Part shown: positions 2 to 10,615 of the stretch, piece by piece
Position numbering within the stretch: the stretch's first letter is position 1
Layout of the letters: every line of letters begins with the position of its first letter
Assembly (NCBI GenBank): GCA_021791495.1
Contig: JAJYWN010000051.1
Location: 1-64,000, forward strand
Length of the DNA: 64,000 bases
Reading direction: 5' to 3'
Source: Bacillota bacterium
GTDB taxonomy: Bacteria; Bacillota; Sulfobacillia; JAJYWN01
The notes under the pieces: model-generated
Databases searched by the model: none
Told to the model about the DNA's origin: nothing
Seen by the model: only the letters and a program-made list of their open reading frames with translations
Position numbers and translations under genes: made by a program

Positions 2-2815
2 CTGGTGGTCGGCAGCGGCATCGGGGGCATGGAGTCCGCCCTGAAGCTGGGCGACATGGGCTATAAGGTCCTGCTGGTGGAGAAGGAAGCCAGCGTGGGC
101 GGGAAGATGATCCTGCTCAGCAAGGTGTTCCCCACCCTGGACTGCGCCAGCTGCATCTCCACGCCGAAGATGGCCGCCACCATCCACCACCCCAATATCA
201 CCGCCCTCACCTACTCCGAGGTGGAAGGGATCCAACGGAACGGGAATGGCCGCTTCAAGGTGAAAATCCGGCGCAAGCCCACCTTCATCGATCCGGCGCT
301 GTGCACGGGCTGCCGCCAGTGCGAGATGGGTTGCAACGTCGCCGTGCCGGACCAGTTCAACTCCGATCTGGTGTCACGGCGGGCCGCCTATATCGCTTTC
401 CCGCAGGCCGTGCCGAAAAAGGCCGTCATTGAGCGGGCCGGTACGTCCCCGTGCACCTTCGCCTGCCCCGCTGGGATCAAGTCCCACGGATACGTGGCCC
501 TGATCCGCGGCGGCGAGTATGAGAAAGCCTTCAACCTGATCTTGGAGGCCACGCCCCTGGTCGGTAGCCTGGGGAGGTCCTGTTTCGCCCCGTGCGAATC
601 CGAGTGCACCAGGGGTAGCCTGGAAGGCCCCCTGCCCATCCGCCGCTTGAAGAGGTTCGTGGCCGACACCCATTACCGTGACCACGATGCCCCGGCGGTC
701 GAGAAAGCGCCCCCCAACGGCAAGAAAGTGGCCATCGTCGGCTCCGGGCCGGCCGGCCTGACGGCCGCCTGGCAGCTGGCCCTCCGGGGCTATGAAGTCA
801 AGATTCTGGAAGCGGCGCCCCAGCCCGGCGGAGCGCTCCGGCTGGCCATCCCGGCCTACCGGTTGCCCGCCGAAGTGGTGGAAGCCGACGTCCGGAACGT
901 CACCAGCGTCGGCGTGGAGATCGCCTGCAACACCCGGGTTGAGAATCTGGAAGACCTCAAAGCCGAGGGCTTTGATGCCATCCTGGTGGCCACCGGCACG
1001 CCCCGCGCCGCCCGGCTGAACGTGCCCGGCGAAGACCTCCCCGGAGTGGTCGCTTCCCTGGACTTTCTGAGAGCGCCCAAGCTGGGAGCCGCCATCACCG
1101 GTGCAGAGGCCCCAGCCGCGCACACCGTCGACGCGGTCGCCGCCGTGGCCGAAGTCGCCGCCGCGAAGGCTGTACCGCCGGCCGGCGCCGCGACGTCTGA
1201 TCCCACTTTCGGCGCCAAGGACCTGAGCGGTAAGGATGTGGTGGTCATCGGCGGCGGTAACGTGGCCATCGATGCCAGCCGCACCGCGCTGCGCCTTGGA
1301 GCCAAGTCGGTGCGTCAGGTCAGTCTGGAGTCCCGGCTCGAAATGCCGGCCCACACCTGGGAAGTGGAAGAAGCCATCACCGAAGGCGTCACCGTCCTCA
1401 ACTCCTGGGGCGTGAAGCAGGTTCTGGGAACCGGCGAAGGCCAGGTCAAGGGCGTGGAACTGAAGCGCTGCACCGCCGTGTTCGACAGTAACCACCGTTT
1501 CAGCCCGCAGTACGATGAGGCTGTCACCCAGACCCTAAACTGCGACGCCGTCATCGTGGCCATCGGTATGGGTCCGGATACGGCGGCCTTCGCCAACCTT
1601 CTGACCTTGAACCGGAACCGGACCATCACCGTCGACCCGGCTACCCAGCAGAGTAGCGTCCCTTACATCTTCGCCGCCGGGGACGTGGTCTCAGGGGCAT
1701 CCTTCATCAACACCTCGGCCGGTCAGGGGCGCAAGGCCGCCTTCATGATCGACCGCTGGCTGCAGGGTAAAGAGATGAACGAAACCGAGTTCGATCCCAA
1801 GCTGCCCGTGGTGGATAAGACGCAGGTTCTGGCCCGCCAGAAGAGCCACAGCCGACGCGACCCGGTGGCAGGCGGGCTAACCTTGGTCGCCCGGCCGCGC
1901 GGTTTCGCCGAGATCGAAGCTCCGCTCACCGAGGACGAGGCGTTGGCCAGCGTTGGTCGTTGCCTTGACTGCGGCGTGTGCTCAGAGTGCCACCAGTGCG
2001 TGAATGTCTGTCCGGCAGACGCCGTGAAGATGGAGATGCGCGAGCAGACGGTCGAGGCCAAGGTGGGGGCCGTCATCGTCTCCACCGGGTTCAAGCTCTT
2101 CCCGGCCGACCTGAAGCCCCAGTATGGTTACGGCAAGTTCAAGAACGTCATCACCGGCATGCAGATGGACCGGCTCCTGGCCCCCACGCGGCCCTATAAC
2201 ACGGTCCTCCGGCCGGGGGACGGCAAGGTGCCGGACCGCATCGCCTACATCATGTGCACCGGTTCACGCGACCAGACCGTCGGCAACCCGCTCTGCTCCA
2301 GGGTCTGCTGCATGTACTCCATCAAGCAGAACCAGCTCATCATGGGCGCTCTGCCCCTGGCCGACGTCACCGTGCACTACATCGACGTCCGTGCTTTCAG
2401 TAAGGGATACGACGAGTTCTACGAGCAGGCCAAGGCCATGGGCGCCAACTTCATCAAGGGCCGTGTGGCGCGGATCAAGGAGAAGGAAGACGGTAACCTG
2501 CTCCTCTCCTACGAAGACATCGAAAACGGCGGAGCGATCGCCGAGGCCGAGTACGACCTGGTGGTGCTGGCCGTGGGCATTCAGCCCAATCTGGAGGCCC
2601 GGGACCTGTTCCCCGGCGGCGAGCTGAAGATGGACGACTACTACTACGTGCAGGAAGTGAACGAGGACCTGAACCCTGGCCAGACCAGTATCGACGGGGT
2701 CTACGTGGCCGGCGCGGCTTCCGGCGCCAAGGATATCCCTGATTCCATCCTGCATGCCGGCGCGGCAGCCGCTCAGGCCGCCGCCTACGTGGAAAAGGTG
2801 GGGAGGCCGGCATGA
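2..2815 (+). CDS. hdrA: HdrA-like flavoprotein with inserted NfnB/GltD-like module (5' partial)
   Basis: Heterodisulfide reductase subunit A-like iron-sulfur flavoprotein, cut by the left window edge: the reading frame is open to base 2 and begins inside the FAD Rossmann loop (VGSGIGGMES). The HdrA N-terminal half carries a DCASC cysteine pair and a ferredoxin-like CTGCRQCEMGC motif (about residues 98-108). An inserted glutamate-synthase-small-subunit/NfnB-like module (about residues 140-640) follows, with CTFACP, a second dinucleotide fold (VGSGPAGL) and a third (GGGNVAID). The HdrA C-terminal half resumes with CGVCSECHQCVNVCP. The architecture suggests NAD(P)H or ferredoxin electrons entering a bifurcating HdrABC-type complex; that is inference. 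The stop overlaps the next start (ATGA). Confidence 0.9.
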   Translation: MVVGSGIGGMESALKLGDMGYKVLLVEKEASVGGKMILLSKVFPTLDCASCISTPKMAATIHHPNITALTYSEVEGIQRNGNGRFKVKIRRKPTFIDPALCTGCRQCEMGCNVAVPDQFNSDLVSRRAAYIAFPQAVPKKAVIERAGTSPCTFACPAGIKSHGYVALIRGGEYEKAFNLILEATPLVGSLGRSCFAPCESECTRGSLEGPLPIRRLKRFVADTHYRDHDAPAVEKAPPNGKKVAIVGSGPAGLTAAWQLALRGYEVKILEAAPQPGGALRLAIPAYRLPAEVVEADVRNVTSVGVEIACNTRVENLEDLKAEGFDAILVATGTPRAARLNVPGEDLPGVVASLDFLRAPKLGAAITGAEAPAAHTVDAVAAVAEVAAAKAVPPAGAATSDPTFGAKDLSGKDVVVIGGGNVAIDASRTALRLGAKSVRQVSLESRLEMPAHTWEVEEAITEGVTVLNSWGVKQVLGTGEGQVKGVELKRCTAVFDSNHRFSPQYDEAVTQTLNCDAVIVAIGMGPDTAAFANLLTLNRNRTITVDPATQQSSVPYIFAAGDVVSGASFINTSAGQGRKAAFMIDRWLQGKEMNETEFDPKLPVVDKTQVLARQKSHSRRDPVAGGLTLVARPRGFAEIEAPLTEDEALASVGRCLDCGVCSECHQCVNVCPADAVKMEMREQTVEAKVGAVIVSTGFKLFPADLKPQYGYGKFKNVITGMQMDRLLAPTRPYNTVLRPGDGKVPDRIAYIMCTGSRDQTVGNPLCSRVCCMYSIKQNQLIMGALPLADVTVHYIDVRAFSKGYDEFYEQAKAMGANFIKGRVARIKEKEDGNLLLSYEDIENGGAIAEAEYDLVVLAVGIQPNLEARDLFPGGELKMDDYYYVQEVNEDLNPGQTSIDGVYVAGAASGAKDIPDSILHAGAAAAQAAAYVEKVGRPA

Positions 2816-4728
2816 CCATGCGACGGATTGGCGTTTACATCTGCCACTGCGGTGGCAATATCTCCGACTACGTGGACGTGGAGAAGGTCCGGGGCACCGT
2901 GGAAAGCGAACCGGGCGTGGTGGTGGCCAAGACGGCCATGTTCACCTGTTCCGATGCGACCCAGCAGGAGATGCTCCAGGACATTCAGGAGCAGAACCTG
3001 GACGGCCTGGTGGTCGCCTCCTGCTCTCCCAAACTGCACACTTTCACCTTCCGCGGTGTGGCCCGGCGGGCGGGGTTGAACCCCTACGAGTACACCCAGG
3101 TCAACGTGCGTGAGCAGTGCTCCTGGGCGCACACTGACGATCGGGCCGGGGCCACCGAGAAGGCCATCCGCCTGGTGCGCGCCGGCATCGCCCGGACCGG
3201 GCTGACCGTGCCCCTGGATCCCACCGTGGTGCAGACCGTTCCGAAGGCCCTGGTGGTCGGGGGTGGCATCGCCGGCCTGCGGGCGGCCCTGGGGCTGTCC
3301 GACATCGGCATCGCCGTCTTCCTTGTGGAAAAGGAAGCGCAGGTGGGCGGCTGGGTGGCGGGCTTCGGCAGCATGTATCCGCACGAGAAGAACGGCCAGG
3401 AACTCATGGCCCATCTCAAGGGCGAGATCGCCAAGCGGTCCAACATCACGGTATTCACCAAGGCGGAACTGGTGGGTAAGGCCGGCAGTTTCGGCAACTA
3501 CCAAGCCACCATCAAGGTTGGCGGTGGAAAAGCGGGGGCGGCGCCGGCGGCCGCGGCCGAGACCATCCAGGTCGACGTGGGATCGATCATCGTCGCCACC
3601 GGTTTCGACAGCTACCACCCCGAGGCGGGCGAGTACGGCTACGGCATGGAGGGCGTCGTCACCCTGCCGGAGTTCAAGGAACTCCTCGACAGTTCAGGCC
3701 TCGGGGCCGGGGAAGGCCGTGGGAATGGCCACCGCGACGGCCACGATTCGGGACGCGACGACGGTGGCGCGGGGACGGCCTTGACATATAAGGGCCGGCC
3801 CGTGAGGAGCATCGCCTATATCTACTGCGTGGGCAGCCGGCAGAGTCGCGACGTGCCCAACGCGAACACTTACTGCTCCCGTTTCTGCTGCAACGCGGCG
3901 GTCCACACCTCCCTAGAAGTGGCCGCCGCCGCGGCCCCTCGTACAGGTGGCGGCGGCGTTAGCGCCGGAGTACGCCAATACCACCTGTACCGGGACATGC
4001 GCACTTACGGCAAGTACGAACTCCTGTTTAACGAAGCCCGCGACAAGGGGTCGGTCTTCCTCAAGTTCGGCGACGACGCGCCGCCGGCCGTGGCCCGGGA
4101 CGAGCGGAGCGGCCGCCTCCTGGTGACCGTGGCCGACCAACTGACCATGAGCACGGAAGTGACCATCCCCGCCGACCTGGTGGTCCTGGTCACCGGCATG
4201 GTCCCCCGGTCCAACGAGGAACTGATCAAGACCTTGAAACTCCCGGTGGGCAAGGACCGCTTCTTCAACGAGATCCACCCAAAACTGCGTCCCGTGGAGA
4301 CCGTGGTGGACGGAGTCTACATCTGCGGTGCTTGCCAGGGTCCCAAGAACTCCGCCGAGAGCGTGGCTTCGGCTCTGGCGGCGGTGACCCAGAGCGCCGG
4401 CATCTTGAAGAAGGGCTTCGCCGAGTTGGAACCACTGGTGGCCAAGGTAGACCCGGACCAGTGCACGTGGTGCGGGAAGTGCCAGGAGAGTTGCCCCTAC
4501 GATGGGGCCATCCGCCGGGAGCAGGTCGCCGAAGGCCAGGGCGAGGGCAAGGTCACGGGCAGGGTCAAGGGCAGGGGCAAGGAAGTGGCGGTCATCGACG
4601 CGGCCGTATGCAAGGGCTGCGGCGGGTGCGCTCCGCTGTGCCCCAAGGACGCCATTGACCTCCAAGGCTACACCGACGCCCAGATCAAAGCGATGATCGA
4701 AGGCCTGGCGAAGGAGGTGGGCCAATGA
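2812..4728 (+). CDS. hdrA: HdrA-like CoB--CoM heterodisulfide reductase iron-sulfur subunit A
   Basis: A 638-residue HdrA homologue starting with the family-typical segment MRRIGVYICHCGGNI. The FAD-binding motif VVGGGIAGLRAALGL lies near residues 146-160, VEKEAQVGG follows, and two C-terminal 4Fe-4S motifs (CTWCGKCQESCP and CKGCGGCAPLCP) sit near residues 545 and 603. It overlaps the preceding hdrA by ATGA, so the two are probably translationally coupled and form two HdrA-type subunits of one complex. Low-complexity insertions rich in Gly, Ala, Asp and Arg (about residues 235-250 and 295-325) interrupt otherwise conserved blocks. The start at 2812 or the in-frame ATG at 2818 are both possible. 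Confidence 0.92.
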   Translation: MTMRRIGVYICHCGGNISDYVDVEKVRGTVESEPGVVVAKTAMFTCSDATQQEMLQDIQEQNLDGLVVASCSPKLHTFTFRGVARRAGLNPYEYTQVNVREQCSWAHTDDRAGATEKAIRLVRAGIARTGLTVPLDPTVVQTVPKALVVGGGIAGLRAALGLSDIGIAVFLVEKEAQVGGWVAGFGSMYPHEKNGQELMAHLKGEIAKRSNITVFTKAELVGKAGSFGNYQATIKVGGGKAGAAPAAAAETIQVDVGSIIVATGFDSYHPEAGEYGYGMEGVVTLPEFKELLDSSGLGAGEGRGNGHRDGHDSGRDDGGAGTALTYKGRPVRSIAYIYCVGSRQSRDVPNANTYCSRFCCNAAVHTSLEVAAAAAPRTGGGGVSAGVRQYHLYRDMRTYGKYELLFNEARDKGSVFLKFGDDAPPAVARDERSGRLLVTVADQLTMSTEVTIPADLVVLVTGMVPRSNEELIKTLKLPVGKDRFFNEIHPKLRPVETVVDGVYICGACQGPKNSAESVASALAAVTQSAGILKKGFAELEPLVAKVDPDQCTWCGKCQESCPYDGAIRREQVAEGQGEGKVTGRVKGRGKEVAVIDAAVCKGCGGCAPLCPKDAIDLQGYTDAQIKAMIEGLAKEVGQ

Positions 4729-5024
4729 GCGCGGGCATGAGCACGAGCACAGGTACGAGCACAGGTACGAGCATGAGTGCGAGTACGAACCGTGATACCC
4801 GGGAAATCATCCGGGACGAACACCTCATGCGCCGGCGCATCCTGAAGGTTCTGGCCGATGGCCCCAAGACGGTCCCTGAGATCGCCGCGGCCCTGGACCG
4901 CCCAACCCACGAAGTGGTCTTCTGGGTAATGGGGATGCGCAAGTACGGCTACGTGGCCGAGATCAAAGAGGTCACCGACGAGGGATATTTCCAGTACCAG
5001 GCCGTTCCGAGGGAGGGAGCGTGA
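4725..5024 (+). CDS. small winged-helix protein inside the hdr operon
   Basis: A 99-residue protein. Residues 1-22 are a Ser/Thr/Gly low-complexity leader (STSTGTSTGTS). From about residue 34 the sequence MRRRILKVLADGPKTVPEIAAAL followed by a PTHEVVFWVMGMRKYG segment reads as a helix-turn-helix/winged-helix fold of the type that senses or docks rather than catalyses. The ATG overlaps the hdrA stop (ATGA) and has AAGGAGGTGG just upstream; its own stop overlaps the hdrC start (GTGATG). Co-translation with hdrA and hdrC suggests a regulator or accessory subunit of the Hdr complex. No metal-binding cysteines are present. The function is not established. Confidence 0.8.
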   Translation: MSAGMSTSTGTSTGTSMSASTNRDTREIIRDEHLMRRRILKVLADGPKTVPEIAAALDRPTHEVVFWVMGMRKYGYVAEIKEVTDEGYFQYQAVPREGA

Positions 5025-5335
5025 TGGCCGTGGCCGTCTTGAATCCGGATCTGGTCGATATGGTGCGGCGGGGCAGCCACGACTTCAACGCCTCCGCCTG
5101 CATGAACTGCGGTGCCTGCAGCGCGGTCTGTCCCATGGGGATACAGCTGCTGCCCCGAAAGCTCTTCCGTTACGTCCTGCTCGGCATGGAAGACCAGGTG
5201 AAGGAGAATACCGAGACCATCTACTCCTGCCTCCTGTGCAAGATGTGCGAGGTGAATTGCCCGGGTGGAGTGCACATCGCGGAAAACGTGCGCTCCCTGC
5301 GGCACTTCATCAATCGCCAGGTTTTCCGGTTGTAA
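5021..5335 (+). CDS. hdrC: HdrC-like 4Fe-4S ferredoxin subunit
   Basis: A 104-residue HdrC-type protein with two 4Fe-4S motifs, CMNCGACSAVCPMG (about residues 27-40) and CLLCKMCEVNCPGG (about residues 70-83). This spacing is usual for the subunit that passes electrons between HdrA and HdrB. The GTG at 5021 overlaps the preceding stop; the ATG at 5024 is an alternative start, with GGGAGGGAG upstream. It is followed after 15 bp by the hdrB-like gene. Confidence 0.9.
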   Translation: MMAVAVLNPDLVDMVRRGSHDFNASACMNCGACSAVCPMGIQLLPRKLFRYVLLGMEDQVKENTETIYSCLLCKMCEVNCPGGVHIAENVRSLRHFINRQVFRL

Positions 5336-5350
5336 GGAGGAGGGATCATC

Positions 5351-6361
5351 ATGCCGCTGCCAATCGGCGATACCATCGGCATTCTGGCCGACAACCTGCG
5401 CCAGCGCAGGTCGGTGCTCCCCATCCCGGTACGGGCCGCCACACGGTGGGCCCGGGGGCTGAACCTGCCACGGGGCGGGGAGACCGTGATGTACACGGGA
5501 CTCATGTTCCAGCTGATTCCCTATATCGAAGCCATGAGCGGAGCCGAAGAACGCCTGGGCGATTCCTGGCTGGCCGGCTTCACCGGCCTGGGACGGCAGG
5601 TCAATAAAGTGGTGAACATCTCCGCCTTCATGGCCCGGCCATCGGCCCAGGCGCAGGCGGCCAACGACCAGGTCCTGGTGAACGTGGCTCTCCTCCTTAA
5701 GCAGGCGGAAGTCGACTTCGGATACCTGTACGAAGAAGAGCTGTACTCCGGGGCCCTCATCTACGACCTGGGAGTGCACGAAGCTCTGGTCTCTCATGCC
5801 CGCAAGGTCTACGACGTCTTGAAAAAGCACAGCGTCAAGAACGTCATCACAGTGGACCCGCATACCACCAACATGCTGCGTTCGGTCTATCCCACCATCA
5901 TCGATGGGTACGACTTGAAGGTCCAGAGTTACCTGGAAGTTCTGGCCGAAAAGGGGCTGAAACCGGTCAAGACCCTGGCCGGTGAGGTGGCCATCCACGA
6001 CTCCTGCGTCTTCGCCCGCTACGAGAACGTCGTGGACCAGCCCCGGGACCTCCTGGCGCAGGCGGGGATCACGGTGCGCGAGCCCGAGGACGCCGGCAAA
6101 TACACCTGGTGCTGCGGCGGTCCGGCCGAATCCCTCTACCCGAAAAAGGCCTTGGCCAACGCCGAGAAGCGGGTCGCACAGCTGAAGAAAGCGGTCACAG
6201 CCGAAAGGGCCGGGGGGGCTGAGGCCGGTGTGGAAACCGGTATAACCATGTGCCCCATCTGCCTTGTGAACCTACAGAAAGCGGCTCAGGAGTCCCTGCG
6301 TTTCCAGGACATCTCCCATTACCTGCGGCAGGCCTACTGCCCGCAAGCCGAGGTGAAATGA
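5351..6361 (+). CDS. hdrB: HdrB/HdrD-like CCG-domain iron-sulfur protein
   Basis: A 336-residue heterodisulfide-reductase-related Fe-S-binding protein. One full cysteine-rich (CCG) half is visible: HDSCVFAR (about residue 217), then WCCGGPAES (about residue 250), then MCPIC near residue 300. The N-terminal half lacks a matching CCG set and instead has YTGLMFQLIPYIEAM, as in HdrD/GlpC-like proteins, so one non-cubane cluster may be present rather than two. SD AAGGAGGAGGG precedes the ATG. Its place after hdrC makes it the probable disulfide- or sulfur-substrate-reducing subunit. The natural substrate cannot be read from the sequence; a methanogen CoM-CoB role is unlikely in a bacterium. Confidence 0.85.
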   Translation: MPLPIGDTIGILADNLRQRRSVLPIPVRAATRWARGLNLPRGGETVMYTGLMFQLIPYIEAMSGAEERLGDSWLAGFTGLGRQVNKVVNISAFMARPSAQAQAANDQVLVNVALLLKQAEVDFGYLYEEELYSGALIYDLGVHEALVSHARKVYDVLKKHSVKNVITVDPHTTNMLRSVYPTIIDGYDLKVQSYLEVLAEKGLKPVKTLAGEVAIHDSCVFARYENVVDQPRDLLAQAGITVREPEDAGKYTWCCGGPAESLYPKKALANAEKRVAQLKKAVTAERAGGAEAGVETGITMCPICLVNLQKAAQESLRFQDISHYLRQAYCPQAEVK

Positions 6362-7120: not shown

Positions 7121-8092
7121 TTACTTGGCAGTCGGGTACTCGGGCTGCTTGCACCCGAAGGGCTTGGTACCGATGATGTCTTCCTTTGAGGTCCAGGCCA
7201 TCATACCCTGGCCGGCCGCATAGGCGTCGTAGCCCAGCATGTTTAGGAAGATGGTCGCCTGGCTGGCAGACTGCCCCGAGTAGCAGAAGAGCACGATCTT
7301 CTTGTCGGTCGGGAGTTTCTTGAGACTGGCTTCCTTGGCGATTTCCGTCAGGGGGATGTTGATGGCGCCGGTCGCGTGCCCCTTGGCGTAGTGCTCCGCC
7401 TTGCGGACGTCGACGTAGAAGTAGGAAGCATCCTTGGCGGTGATGTTGGTGTTGATGTCGGCGGCCTTGATGGAGGCCGCTTTTCCTAGAGCCAGATAGG
7501 CTCCGGCGCGGTCGAGGATAAGCTTGTTATCGTCGGCTATCTTGGTCTTCAGTTCAGGCAGTTTGTTGTCGGCCTTCACATCGGGCACGGCCGTGGTGAC
7601 CGGGTACTCACCGGCCTGGCAGTTCCAGGGCTTGATGCCCAGGATCTTCTCGTCCTTGGTCCATCCCAGCATGCCAAAACTCATCGAGGAGGCATCATAC
7701 CCCAGCATGTTCAGGAGGGCCGAGGTCTGCCCCGCGGTCTGACCGGTGTAGCAGATAACGAGGATTTTCTTATCCTTCTTGAATTTGTCGATGTTCTGGA
7801 CGACGGTCTTGTAGGGGATATTGATGGCGCCCTCGACATGACCTAGAGCGTAATGGTCGGCCGAGCGGATGTCCACGATCTGCCATCCGGGGTCCTTGGC
7901 TTTGACGATGTTGTTGTAGACATCATCTACGCTGACGACCTTGGTCTTTCCGGCGGCGAAGAACTTGTCCGCCACGGCAGCCAGACGCTGGACTTCGGTG
8001 GGCCCCTTCTGACCACAGGCGGACGCGGACAGAATGGCCAAGATCACGGCCAGGATAAGGGCGGAAACGCGTAGAACCCGATATTTCCTCAT
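7121..8092 (-). CDS. lipoprotein with two rhodanese domains
   Basis: An exported protein with a signal peptide and lipobox (ILSASACG), followed by two rhodanese-like domains. The first has IVDIRSADHYALGHVEGAINIP and active-site loop CYTGQTAGQT; the second has YVDVRKAEHYAKGHATGAINIP and loop CYSGQSASQA. Both keep the loop cysteine, so both may carry persulfide. The start is set at the second ATG (8092), which has GAGAGGAG upstream and leaves a normal basic n-region (MRKYR). It lies downstream of, and codirectional with, the multihaem cytochrome, suggesting extracytoplasmic sulfur or polysulfide handling; the coupling to the cytochrome is inferred. Confidence 0.9.
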   Translation of the reverse strand: MRKYRVLRVSALILAVILAILSASACGQKGPTEVQRLAAVADKFFAAGKTKVVSVDDVYNNIVKAKDPGWQIVDIRSADHYALGHVEGAINIPYKTVVQNIDKFKKDKKILVICYTGQTAGQTSALLNMLGYDASSMSFGMLGWTKDEKILGIKPWNCQAGEYPVTTAVPDVKADNKLPELKTKIADDNKLILDRAGAYLALGKAASIKAADINTNITAKDASYFYVDVRKAEHYAKGHATGAINIPLTEIAKEASLKKLPTDKKIVLFCYSGQSASQATIFLNMLGYDAYAAGQGMMAWTSKEDIIGTKPFGCKQPEYPTAK

Positions 8093-8147
8093 CGCTGAGA
8101 CTCCTCTCATTCTCCACCTTTGCGCTTAGGGGTGGTTGTCCAGGGTA

Positions 8148-9296
8148 CTACCTGCCAAGACGTGGCGGTAGTGCCGGTACGATCACGTTGGCGTTGGCTT
8201 TCTGTTCGTCAAGGCTCACGTCGGACGCTTTCAGGAACAAGCTGGCGTTGGCGTGACAGCTGTCGCAGCTTTTGTTCTGGTCGGTGACCCGAAGGATGTT
8301 GTGGGGCGTGGCTTTCTTCCAGGTCGCCTGGTTGTCGAACCCGGTCAGGAAGTCCTTTCCGTAGTAGGCGAAAGTATCGCGCGCCACTGGAACGTGCCTC
8401 ACGACCACGAAATCCCAGGGAGCGTCCGCCGTCTTATTGGGGTTACGCCCGATCTTGAAGTTGAACTCAGACTTGTCGACTTTGTAGTAGGCCAGACCTT
8501 TGGCGTCCTTCCCAACGTGGCATCCGTAGCAGGTGTTATAAGACTGGGAATGGCATACCTGGCATTGCAGGGTCGGCAGGCCGCTGGTTGTTCCACCGGT
8601 GGCTGAGGCCTGAGCGTGTATCTTATGCTGGTCCACCTTAGCGAACTTGTCGCTGTTCAGATGGCAAGAGACGCACGATGGTCTGGCGGGCGCCTGATAG
8701 CGGCCTGTCGGAGGAGCTGCTGTTCCGTGCAGTTCGTCTTCCGTGTGGCATGCGGCGCATTGCAGCCCTCCAGGGGTCCAGTGGACGTCCGGCTTTAGAG
8801 CTACCGTGGCATCCTCGGGGGCCTTACCCATGAACTCGCGTTCAATGCGACTGCCGTGGCAGGCTGTGCAGTTCAGAACGGAGTTTGGGACGCTGTAGAA
8901 GTTGTGGCCGTCGACCAGCCCACCGCCCGAATACTGCGGGCGGGAAACATGACAGTCCCCGCAGGTCGTGGTGTGGCACGACGCACAGTGGGTGTTGACG
9001 GGCCCCTGCAACACGTCCTTGGCCGCGGGGTCGACGCGGGCCGCCAGGACCCCCACGTCCAGGTTAACTATGCCGGCGCTGGTCCAGTGCAGGTTCTTTT
9101 GGAACATGTCCACCGACTTTGTGTGGCAGGTTTTGCAGACGGCGACGTTCTCGTCGGGCTTGACCTTCATGCCCTTATGGGCTTCGGTGCGCGCGCGCGC
9201 CACGGCCTGTCCGCCGTGACAGGTGGTGCATTTCTGCTTGCCGTGAGTGGTGGCGAGGAAATCGGGACTTACCAGCACCTTCTGATCCACCTCCAA
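8148..9296 (-). CDS. multihaem cytochrome c, main part (10 CxxCH)
   Basis: A 382-residue segment with ten CxxCH haem c motifs (CTTCH, CKTCH, CASCH, CGDCH, CTACH, CAACH, CVSCH, CQVCH, CYGCH, CDSCH), including the close pair CASCHTTTCGDCH. It has no signal peptide of its own. It lies in exactly the same frame as the upstream 9315-9542 segment, which supplies the membrane anchor and one more haem motif; only a TGA at 9315-9317 separates them. Without read-through, translation would have to restart, for example at GTG 9278, which has GGAGG about 11 nt upstream, and the product would stay cytoplasmic without haem attachment. It was probably one 11-haem periplasmic-side electron-transfer protein. 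Confidence 0.85.
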   Translation of the reverse strand: MEVDQKVLVSPDFLATTHGKQKCTTCHGGQAVARARTEAHKGMKVKPDENVAVCKTCHTKSVDMFQKNLHWTSAGIVNLDVGVLAARVDPAAKDVLQGPVNTHCASCHTTTCGDCHVSRPQYSGGGLVDGHNFYSVPNSVLNCTACHGSRIEREFMGKAPEDATVALKPDVHWTPGGLQCAACHTEDELHGTAAPPTGRYQAPARPSCVSCHLNSDKFAKVDQHKIHAQASATGGTTSGLPTLQCQVCHSQSYNTCYGCHVGKDAKGLAYYKVDKSEFNFKIGRNPNKTADAPWDFVVVRHVPVARDTFAYYGKDFLTGFDNQATWKKATPHNILRVTDQNKSCDSCHANASLFLKASDVSLDEQKANANVIVPALPPRLGR

Positions 9297-9314
9297 CGGA
9301 GGCAGAGCTCCGCC

Positions 9315-9542
9315 TCACCCCTCACCCGAGGTCTCGGACGATTTCTCCGCCACGGGCATGGGCTCGGCTTTCAAGGAGGCGGCCAGGTTCTCCCTACTAG
9401 TATGACACTTGATGCATGAAGTCGAGGGTGAACCATCGCCACCGGCCAGGGCGCCGATGGCAGCCCCGACCGCTCCGGCGCCGGCTAGGACGAGCAAGAG
9501 GACACTTGCTCCTAGCAGGATGTTTCGCAGTGATAGCTTCAT
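9315..9542 (-). CDS. N-terminal part of the multihaem cytochrome, ended by in-frame TGA
   Basis: ATG at 9542 with the strong SD GGGAGGTGAGACA. The product has a signal/anchor helix (LLGASVLLLVLAGAGAVG), then one haem motif CIKCH at about residue 44, and a Glu/Ser-rich linker ending SGEG before TGA at 9315. The next codons (GGC GGA GCT...) continue in frame into the ten-haem segment. A single base change (for example GGA or CGA to TGA in a Gly-rich linker) would explain the break. The alternatives are a sequencing error or programmed read-through. As it stands the gene is split and possibly a pseudogene. Confidence 0.8.
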   Translation of the reverse strand: MKLSLRNILLGASVLLLVLAGAGAVGAAIGALAGGDGSPSTSCIKCHTSRENLAASLKAEPMPVAEKSSETSGEG

Positions 9543-9636
9543 TGTCTCACCTCCCTTTCTTTCGTATGTTTGTCCTGGTACGAATGTCCTGGGACATTGC
9601 ACAGTTCGGCCTAAGGGTATGCGGAAACCTTGTAGT

Positions 9637-9706: not shown

Positions 9707-10615
9707 CTGGATACTGAAAGCCTGAGGGTCTTCTGTGCCGTGGCCCGCGCCGGCAATCTTAGCCGGGCCGCCAAAGCTTTGAACTACAGTCAGCCAGCCA
9801 TCAGCGCGCGCATGGCCCGCCTGGAACGATCTCTGGGGATGCCCCTGATCGAGAGGCATAGCCGGGGCGTTTCGCTGACTGCCGCGGGGGAAATCGTGGC
9901 CGAACACGCCAGGCGCATGATTGAACTGGAGGATGCCATTAAAGACCGGCTGAGCTATCTGTCGGCGAGGAGGAGCCGCCTGTTGCCGGTTTCCGCCGGC
10001 TACATCGCGGGGACCTACTACCTCCCTTGCAGCGTTTGGACCTTCGAGCAGGGTAACCGCGGTGTGCATATCCGGCTGACCGTGACCACGCCGCTAGAGG
10101 TGATCCACAGCGTAATCGACGGGCGATCGGAAATCGGAGTGTGTGAGGGCGGAGTCGAGTCGGATGGAGTTCTTTCGGTCGAGGTGATCGGCAACGAACC
10201 TGTCTGGTTGGTGACGGCCCCGTCCTACGGGCAGCGATGCCACCCTGGCTCCAAGGCCGATGTCTCGCTGAGTAGGCTGAACCTCCTGGCATTGGACTAC
10301 GGATCGGGGCTACGCGAGCTAACCGAGGGTTACCTGGCCGGGAGCGGGCGAAACCTGGGGATAGCTCAAACGTGGAAGATGACCAGCCTGGAGGGGCTGA
10401 AAGCCGCGCTGGTGGGCGGTCTGGGAATGGCCTTCCTACCCCGGTGCGCGGTGATCAAGGAGATCCACGAAAGAAAACTGACACAGGTGGCGTTGCCCGA
10501 CGGGTGCTTCGACCTTCCGGTCTCTTTGGTTTACCGACAAGACCACGAACTCAGCGCTGAAGCTGTCCGTTTCCTGGAGTTTCTCAAACGCCCCTGTGCC
10601 GCCTGCAATCTGTGA
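9707..10615 (+). CDS. LysR-family transcriptional regulator, probable CTG start
   Basis: A roughly 302-residue LysR regulator. The N-terminal helix-turn-helix LRVFCAVARAGNLSRAAKALNYSQPAISARMARLE is complete only if translation begins upstream of the GTG at 9740. The only well-placed initiator is CTG 9707, six bases after GGGGAGGG, giving the family-typical (M)DTESLRVF. The co-inducer domain follows (from about residue 90). Divergent to the cytochrome/rhodanese genes and upstream of tusA, it is a likely regulator of this redox/sulfur region. The inducer is unknown. Confidence 0.88.
   Translation: MDTESLRVFCAVARAGNLSRAAKALNYSQPAISARMARLERSLGMPLIERHSRGVSLTAAGEIVAEHARRMIELEDAIKDRLSYLSARRSRLLPVSAGYIAGTYYLPCSVWTFEQGNRGVHIRLTVTTPLEVIHSVIDGRSEIGVCEGGVESDGVLSVEVIGNEPVWLVTAPSYGQRCHPGSKADVSLSRLNLLALDYGSGLRELTEGYLAGSGRNLGIAQTWKMTSLEGLKAALVGGLGMAFLPRCAVIKEIHERKLTQVALPDGCFDLPVSLVYRQDHELSAEAVRFLEFLKRPCAACNL

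Follow-up and report, generated by a model that had tools for sequence, protein, structure and literature searches.

The stretch of DNA analysed here, referred to as the window, comprises 64,000 nucleotides of contig JAJYWN010000051.1 from the Bacillota bacterium assembly GCA_021791495.1. On its minus strand lies a c-type cytochrome frame that runs from an ATG at 9542 to a stop at 8148-8150 and contains a single internal stop, a TGA at 9315-9317. The N terminus is a hydrophobic export or anchor segment, and the frame encodes 11 CXXCH motifs (residues 43, 105, 136, 186, 194, 225, 262, 290, 327, 338, and 426), one upstream of the TGA and ten downstream. A first-pass annotation had described a single frame with 11 haem motifs split only by this TGA, a description that the reading frame and motifs confirm. 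The features of the locus are as follows.

9543 to 9560, minus strand: strong Shine-Dalgarno region of the cytochrome gene, sequence GGGAGGTGA, ahead of the ATG
8148 to 9542, minus strand: gene for a putative selenocysteine (Sec)-containing 11-haem c-type cytochrome, 464 residues if UGA is Sec
9402 to 9416, minus strand: first haem motif, CIKCH, the sole motif before the UGA, by motif reading
9315 to 9317, minus strand: UGA codon predicted to encode Sec, residue 76 of 464, by comparison of TGA, Cys, and TGG states among 81 members
9286 to 9306, minus strand: putative SECIS hairpin with a 9-bp stem, loop GUU, and a conserved core at 9289-9303, by folding and covariation
7121 to 8110, minus strand: gene for a double-rhodanese lipoprotein, partner of the cytochrome, with two stretches matching Pfam Rhodanese
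9707 to 10615, plus strand: divergent LysR-type regulator, listed as an open reading frame from GTG 9740

The LysR gene likely starts at CTG 9707, behind GGGAGGG; no ATG, GTG, or TTG is listed in its frame before GTG 9740, and a start at that GTG would clip the beginning of the helix-turn-helix. An Rfam scan of the window at the gathering threshold gave no match, and a tRNA scan of the window found none.

Relatives of the cytochrome were gathered by scanning a contig collection with an alignment of the ten-haem body; a first scan of the collection with a single-protein query had returned nothing useful. The resulting family comparison covers 81 members, namely, 79 loci from the best 80 of 101 relatives (truncated L035 was left out), the window, and L007. 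The codon at the site is TGA in 43 members, Cys in 37 (26 TGC and 11 TGT), and TGG in 1, and neither TAA nor TAG occurs there in any of the 81. By protein search, the body was found in 7 of 61 genomes (the window's own and those of 60 relatives), and an eighth has a weak match inside an 874-residue frame. The first-pass annotation had suggested comparing the site with relatives, and in this comparison the TGA recurs in 6/6 full-strength homologues from the 60 relatives' genomes, lying between GEG and GG in all seven genomes with the body.

A further set of 398 genomes, sampled separately from the window's phylum, yielded 15 matches (the window's own included), of which 12 have an in-frame TGA. 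The site was confirmed in seven of these 12 besides the window's own, and since one of the seven (L108) is a duplicate of L054, six are new beyond the 81. Four others (L114 and L116 to L118) were unconfirmed at the site, and three matches are without the TGA, one of them starting at profile position 61. Also in the window's phylum, L109 to L113 and L115 have TGA at the site within the motif GGUG[VA] rather than GEGUGG.

In a maximum-likelihood tree from which the site columns were excluded, the 37 Cys rows form a single clade (SH-aLRT 100). Surrounding this clade are Sec rows from about ten phylum-level groups: Bacillota, Actinomycetota (Coriobacteriia), Chloroflexota, Myxococcota, Thermodesulfobacteriota, Calditrichota, KSB1, and the candidate phyla Rokubacteria, Eisenbacteria, and Delongbacteria. 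The distribution of Sec and Cys needs only two state changes on this tree, a quick one that is unrooted, has long branches in places, and gives no direction for the change. The Cys homologues, from Ignavibacteriota, Bacteroidota, and Desulfobacteria (e.g., L062), have the same haem pattern and rhodanese partner as the window; however, they differ from the Sec members in that they are without a hairpin in the SECIS register and the Sec machinery is mostly absent from their genomes.

Behind the UGA, the window sequence folds into a hairpin (-12.7 kcal/mol) whose loop begins 17 nt past the codon, with G first in the loop. It fits the bSECIS constraints given in the excerpted text of a recent review, i.e., an apical loop of 3 to 9 nt, a stem of 4 to 16 bp, a G in loop position 1 or 2, a distance of 16 to 37 nt from the UGA, and a minimum free energy of -7.5 kcal/mol or below (PMC13188914). 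Taken alone, the window hairpin is not unusually stable (z -0.73, with 44 of 200 shuffles folding equally well; z -0.09 over 46 nt). Such single-sequence stability is unconvincing, and the case for the hairpin rests on comparison.

The covariation set consists of 35 TGA members in which the 46 nt starting at the TGA align gap-free; the eight TGA members with a different hairpin register were left out. The commonest hairpin sequence is GCCUCC, GUU, GGAGGC. Across the 35 members, pairing in the fixed register holds in 95.2% of cells, and 16 double-sided changes are found in five of the six pairs. None of 500 shuffles matched any observed covariation value, and sliding the 3' arm reduced pairing to at most 55%. 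All six pairs form in 27 of 43 TGA members versus 0 of 37 Cys members, and the mean folding z is -1.07 for TGA versus -0.09 for Cys members (Mann-Whitney p 2e-5). Synonymous sites under the hairpin are likewise constrained, as evidenced by four of five codons being identical there versus 23 of 154 elsewhere (six members, p 0.003). A rule with a stem of at least 6 passes 36/43 TGA versus 5/37 Cys members. The loosest rule, with a stem of at least 5, passes 41/43 TGA members and 24/37 Cys members and was not relied on because so many Cys members pass too. L040 and L047 (2 of the 43), the latter from the cultured Anoxynatronum buryatiense, fail the simple SECIS rule.

SelB and tRNA-Sec were searched for in 48 genomes (30 TGA, 17 Cys, and 1 TGG), consisting of the 7 from the 61-genome search and 41 hand-picked among the genomes of L025 to L099. 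SelB scored over its curated cut-off in 26/30 TGA genomes (7/7 plus 19/23) versus 2/17 Cys genomes, and tRNA-Sec was found in 23/30 (7/7 plus 16/23) versus 3/17; with kinship ignored, the Fisher p values are 5e-7 and 2e-4, respectively. The window's genome has SelB over the cut-off, a tRNA-Sec with anticodon TCA, and SelD over the cut-off. Moreover, SelD has an in-frame TGA of its own in all seven TGA genomes searched for it, the window's included, such that selD provides a positive control for the decoding of UGA as Sec in the window's genome. SelB, tRNA-Sec, and SelD were all not found in three TGA genomes (G061, G066, and G080), perhaps because these assemblies are incomplete. Among the 17 Cys-member genomes, SelD was not found in 13 and SelB was not found in 15.

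Two selD copies score over the cut-off in the window's genome (G000:C10:34029-35000 and G000:C54:48833-49753), each with an in-frame TGA, and contamination of the assembly (4.24%) could be the reason for there being two. In the one TGG member, L039 from Chloroflexota (7998-8043), the hairpin has lost its loop G. SelB is still present in the genome of L039, as is a selD with a TGA, and tRNA-Sec was not found there. The TGG may reflect a genuine loss of Sec, or else a mistake in the assembly.

Taken together, the conservation of UGA or Cys at one position, the covariation of the hairpin, and the presence of the decoding genes argue, with little room for doubt, for selenocysteine as the reading of the UGA at 9315-9317 and for a gene that encodes one intact 11-haem protein. 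SelB and tRNA-Sec would insert Sec at residue 76, directed by the hairpin at 9286-9306, and the product would be a single full-length extracytoplasmic 11-haem cytochrome. From the sequence comparisons we infer that Sec is actually present in the protein. Read-through had been among the choices offered by the first-pass annotation, which left its kind unnamed; this choice holds in outline, and the kind is most probably programmed selenocysteine insertion, involving the SECIS hairpin, tRNA-Sec, SelB, and SelD.

Other ways of reading the site fare poorly. That the UGA is instead decoded as Trp by a near-cognate tRNA, or under a reassigned code, might be suggested by the TGG (Trp) codon of L039, but this member has lost the loop G of the hairpin, and the site holds Cys in 37 members. 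Furthermore, the SECIS-like hairpin is found on UGA copies and is absent from Cys copies, SelB and tRNA-Sec track the TGA state, and, against a reassigned code, genes within the window were called with the standard one. We therefore consider such decoding very improbable. It is also very improbable that the locus encodes two proteins, with the TGA ending a one-haem anchor and the ten-haem body restarting by coupling or at a GTG or TTG. Such codons do follow shortly after the TGA, and the GGAGG close by (9290-9294) had earlier been taken as a Shine-Dalgarno-like restart signal; however, this GGAGG belongs to the covarying hairpin as its 3' arm, and it thus provides no evidence for restart. The body alone would be without a signal peptide for haem attachment, and the earlier reasoning that it would lack export and haem insertion unless the TGA is read through still holds as an inference. 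Also, 37 members join both parts in an unbroken Cys frame, and across the 81 members the site alternates with Cys, never with TAA or TAG. Finally, a recent nonsense mutation or a sequencing error, which the first-pass annotation had also raised and which would leave the gene broken or merely apparently so, would fit a lone TGA in the open frame of one assembly but is effectively ruled out, given that the identical TGA recurs in dozens of independent genomes, standing at one column in 43 of the 81 members, whose assemblies are separate and span some ten phylum-level groups, as well as in the independent sample, and that the hairpin behind it is conserved and covarying.

The selenocysteine reading has a practical consequence. 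Standard gene calling would split or truncate the cytochrome gene in Sec-using genomes, and the 11-haem cytochrome with its rhodanese partner is probably misannotated in such genomes across the roughly ten phylum-level groups.

The genes around the cytochrome give clues to its role. Neighbourhoods were counted at 80 loci, with truncated L007 left out, and a member of the double-rhodanese lipoprotein cluster is present at 66 of them. It lies directly downstream on the same strand at 58 of these 66 loci (median gap, 45 nt), upstream at seven of the remaining eight, and farther downstream in L080. The partner is missing from 14 loci; the sequence stops within 500 nt downstream in five of these, and six more have less than 750 nt upstream. 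L039, L049, and L058 have both flanks present and no member of the rhodanese cluster. The lipobox Cys of the rhodanese protein and both of its catalytic-loop Cys show no substitution in 67 aligned members, the few exceptions being gaps.

A divergent LysR gene is common to the window and its nearer kin. Its best NCBIfam match is the selenium-metabolism-associated LysR model (cut-off, 250 bits), which L102 exceeds with 288.8 bits and below which the window (133.8), L103 (208.7), and L106 (199.1) remain. In L103, SelB and selD flank the cytochrome-rhodanese pair, which adjoins an apparent selA (named by place and size), and in L102 the pair shares one 19.7-kb contig with selB, selD, and tRNA-Sec. 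Other loci have different companions. Loci of the Tissierellia type also encode ResB and CcsB, two proteins of haem attachment, and in several Chloroflexota loci the extra genes are those for an OTR-like octahaem cytochrome, a DsrO-like Fe-S protein, and an NrfD/QrcD-like membrane subunit. Such DsrO-like, NrfD/QrcD-like, and OTR-like genes are near the Sec cytochrome in L046 (4342-6465) and in its kin in L039, L042, L044, and L045, and by sequence the set looks like a respiratory complex. Elsewhere in the window, positions 5-6361 hold two large HdrA2/GltD-like flavoproteins (5-2815 and 2812-4728) and a CCG-domain protein (5351-6361), which probably form a set of the electron-bifurcation type with no obvious tie to the cytochrome.

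Octahaem tetrathionate reductase (OTR) has eight haems, including an active-site haem with unusual ligation. The AlphaFold2 model of the window protein (pLDDT 85.6, pTM 0.81) has a predicted body fold like that of the Shewanella enzyme (PDB 1sp3; TIGR04315), as does the model of a Cys member (85.3 and 0.82). In VIA-align 2, 1sp3 ranks first for the window model (Z 9.1, 267 residues, 4.1 A; next row, Z 4.1) and for the Cys-member model (Z 8.2, 269 residues, 4.4 A; next row, Z 4.3), and the family sequence profile finds 1sp3 at E 1e-9. At Z scores of 8 to 9, this modelled likeness to OTR is only moderately convincing. Foldseek gave no match at E 0.001 or better, and phmmer searches of PDB sequences with the body and the full protein returned nothing convincing. 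The window protein also differs from OTR in having 11 motifs rather than 8, with the extra N-terminal haem and the Sec loop outside the aligned part. Against TIGR04315 (cut-off, 375 bits), the window protein has no match up to E 10, and 4 of the 81 members match weakly.

Residue conservation was counted over 80 rows, truncated L007 again being left out. The eleven haem positions are conserved in 79 to 80 of the 80 rows, and only nine non-motif His are conserved. Sec/Cys76, in a loop rich in glycine that follows haem 1 and precedes the ten-haem body, is the sole conserved non-haem Cys or Sec; neither Met nor Lys nor Tyr reaches 85% conservation at any position in both the Sec and Cys groups of these rows. 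Among Cys/Sec, Met, Lys, and Tyr, this leaves Sec/Cys76 as the one further conserved candidate for haem ligation beside the nine His. Arg 201, 232, and 382 are conserved in every Sec and Cys row counted.

The predicted fold and the neighbouring genes, along with the conservation of Sec/Cys76 and the three Arg, suggest, tentatively, that the cytochrome may work outside the cytoplasm and reduce a small anionic compound of sulfur or selenium, with the rhodanese beside it; this is a possibility that falls short of a likely assignment. Electrons would run along the haems to a small compound, such as tetrathionate, thiosulfate, polysulfide, or selenite, and the double-rhodanese lipoprotein would serve the cytochrome as a sulfur carrier. 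Sec/Cys76 would lie at or close to the active haem, either as a residue that binds substrate or takes part in redox chemistry or as an axial ligand of a haem. A parallel by analogy may be found in Dethiobacter alkaliphilus, whose Otr/SirA-like octahaems, one kind of which is beside rhodanese genes, are described in the excerpted source as candidates for sulfur or thiosulfate reduction (PMC10376724).

An alternative is that the function is selenium handling, i.e., selenite reduction or selenium supply, rather than the reduction of sulfur compounds. This idea draws on the pair's placement among sel genes in two relatives (L103 and L102), on the selenium-metabolism-associated model that is the best match of the LysR protein and is exceeded in L102, and on ExtKL, a Sec pentahaem cytochrome that has a rhodanese in its cluster and is tied to selenite reduction by what the excerpted source presents as its authors' preliminary data (PMC5877670). 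However, the LysR of the window stays under the cut-off of that model (133.8 versus 250 bits), and the operon is kept where no selenoprotein seems to be made (SelD not found in 13/17 and SelB in 15/17 Cys genomes). Because the operon persists in Cys genomes that are mostly without SelD, its task is probably not selenium assimilation, and we regard selenium handling as doubtful, if still a serious contender. As to chemistry for the putative sulfur- or selenium-compound reductase, the selenolate (a thiolate in the Cys clade) of a widespread family of respiratory cytochromes might be an axial haem ligand or sit over the active haem and take sulfane sulfur or selenium from the rhodanese, in a haem-coupled selenosulfide chemistry that we put forward as speculative and rather unlikely.

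Among the closest known systems is ExtKL of Geobacter (NF040886), a pentahaem c-type cytochrome in which, according to excerpts of two reports, a TGA lies between ExtK and ExtL, after the haem part (PMC5877670, PMC6148476). On this partial account, ExtKL and the window protein are both multihaem c-type cytochromes for which one Sec is predicted and whose cluster includes a gene for a rhodanese-like lipoprotein, but the window protein has 11 motifs rather than five haems, and its Sec, at residue 76, has ten motifs after it, whereas that of ExtKL follows the haems. NF040886 does not match the window protein up to E 10 and matches 1 of the 81 members (7e-4). MccSep U325 (PDB 9wt8-9wtc) is listed as a multihaem cytochrome with Sec and a solved structure, and its match to the family profile reaches only E 0.17; from the PDB entry names, our guess is that MccSep is ExtKL. 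It is not among the rows that VIA-align 2 reported (342 and 49 chains aligned), which has no bearing on its fold. Literature searches on MccSep and on OTR Cys64/lysine ligation found nothing on point.

Against NCBIfam, the window protein lists five families up to E 10, with none reaching its cut-off. The best are ExtM, ExtN, and ExtO (NF040943, NF040967, and NF040968), from the Geobacter selenite/tellurite operon, at 42, 41.5, and 39.8 bits, far under the cut-offs of 800, 200, and 200 bits, and the matched stretch begins past the Sec site. In NCBIfam release 20 no model covers the family; at E 0.001, 16 of its families match at least one of the 81 members. The 'hypothetical protein DG' (NF049953) has a motif, GUxG, similar to that of the window's family, as given in excerpts of the review (PMC13188914); at E 0.001, NF049953 has no match among the 81 members.

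A term search of the table in the excerpted 2026 review returned, as cytochromes, ExtKL and a GenBank-annotated Sec member of TIGR04315 only (PMC13188914), and the latter record may belong to the window's family. Earlier selenoprotein lists, as excerpted, add no such cytochrome (PMC9312934, PMC12013277). A description or curated model of the family was found neither in NCBIfam release 20 nor in the open literature, most subscription papers being outside this scope. Thus, multihaem cytochromes that contain Sec and pair with a rhodanese are known as a kind, and the window's 11-haem family appears to be new.

With this putative family, the very short list of selenium-containing multihaem cytochromes is extended. 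Its operon provides a testable lead on the respiratory use of sulfur or selenium compounds by little-known Bacillota, Coriobacteriia, and Chloroflexota, and its natural Cys versions offer a comparison for the benefit of selenium in a haem electron-transfer protein. In the Cys clade, the last haem motif appears in the form CX3CH instead of CXXCH, as at residues 396-401 of L062 (7848-9182).
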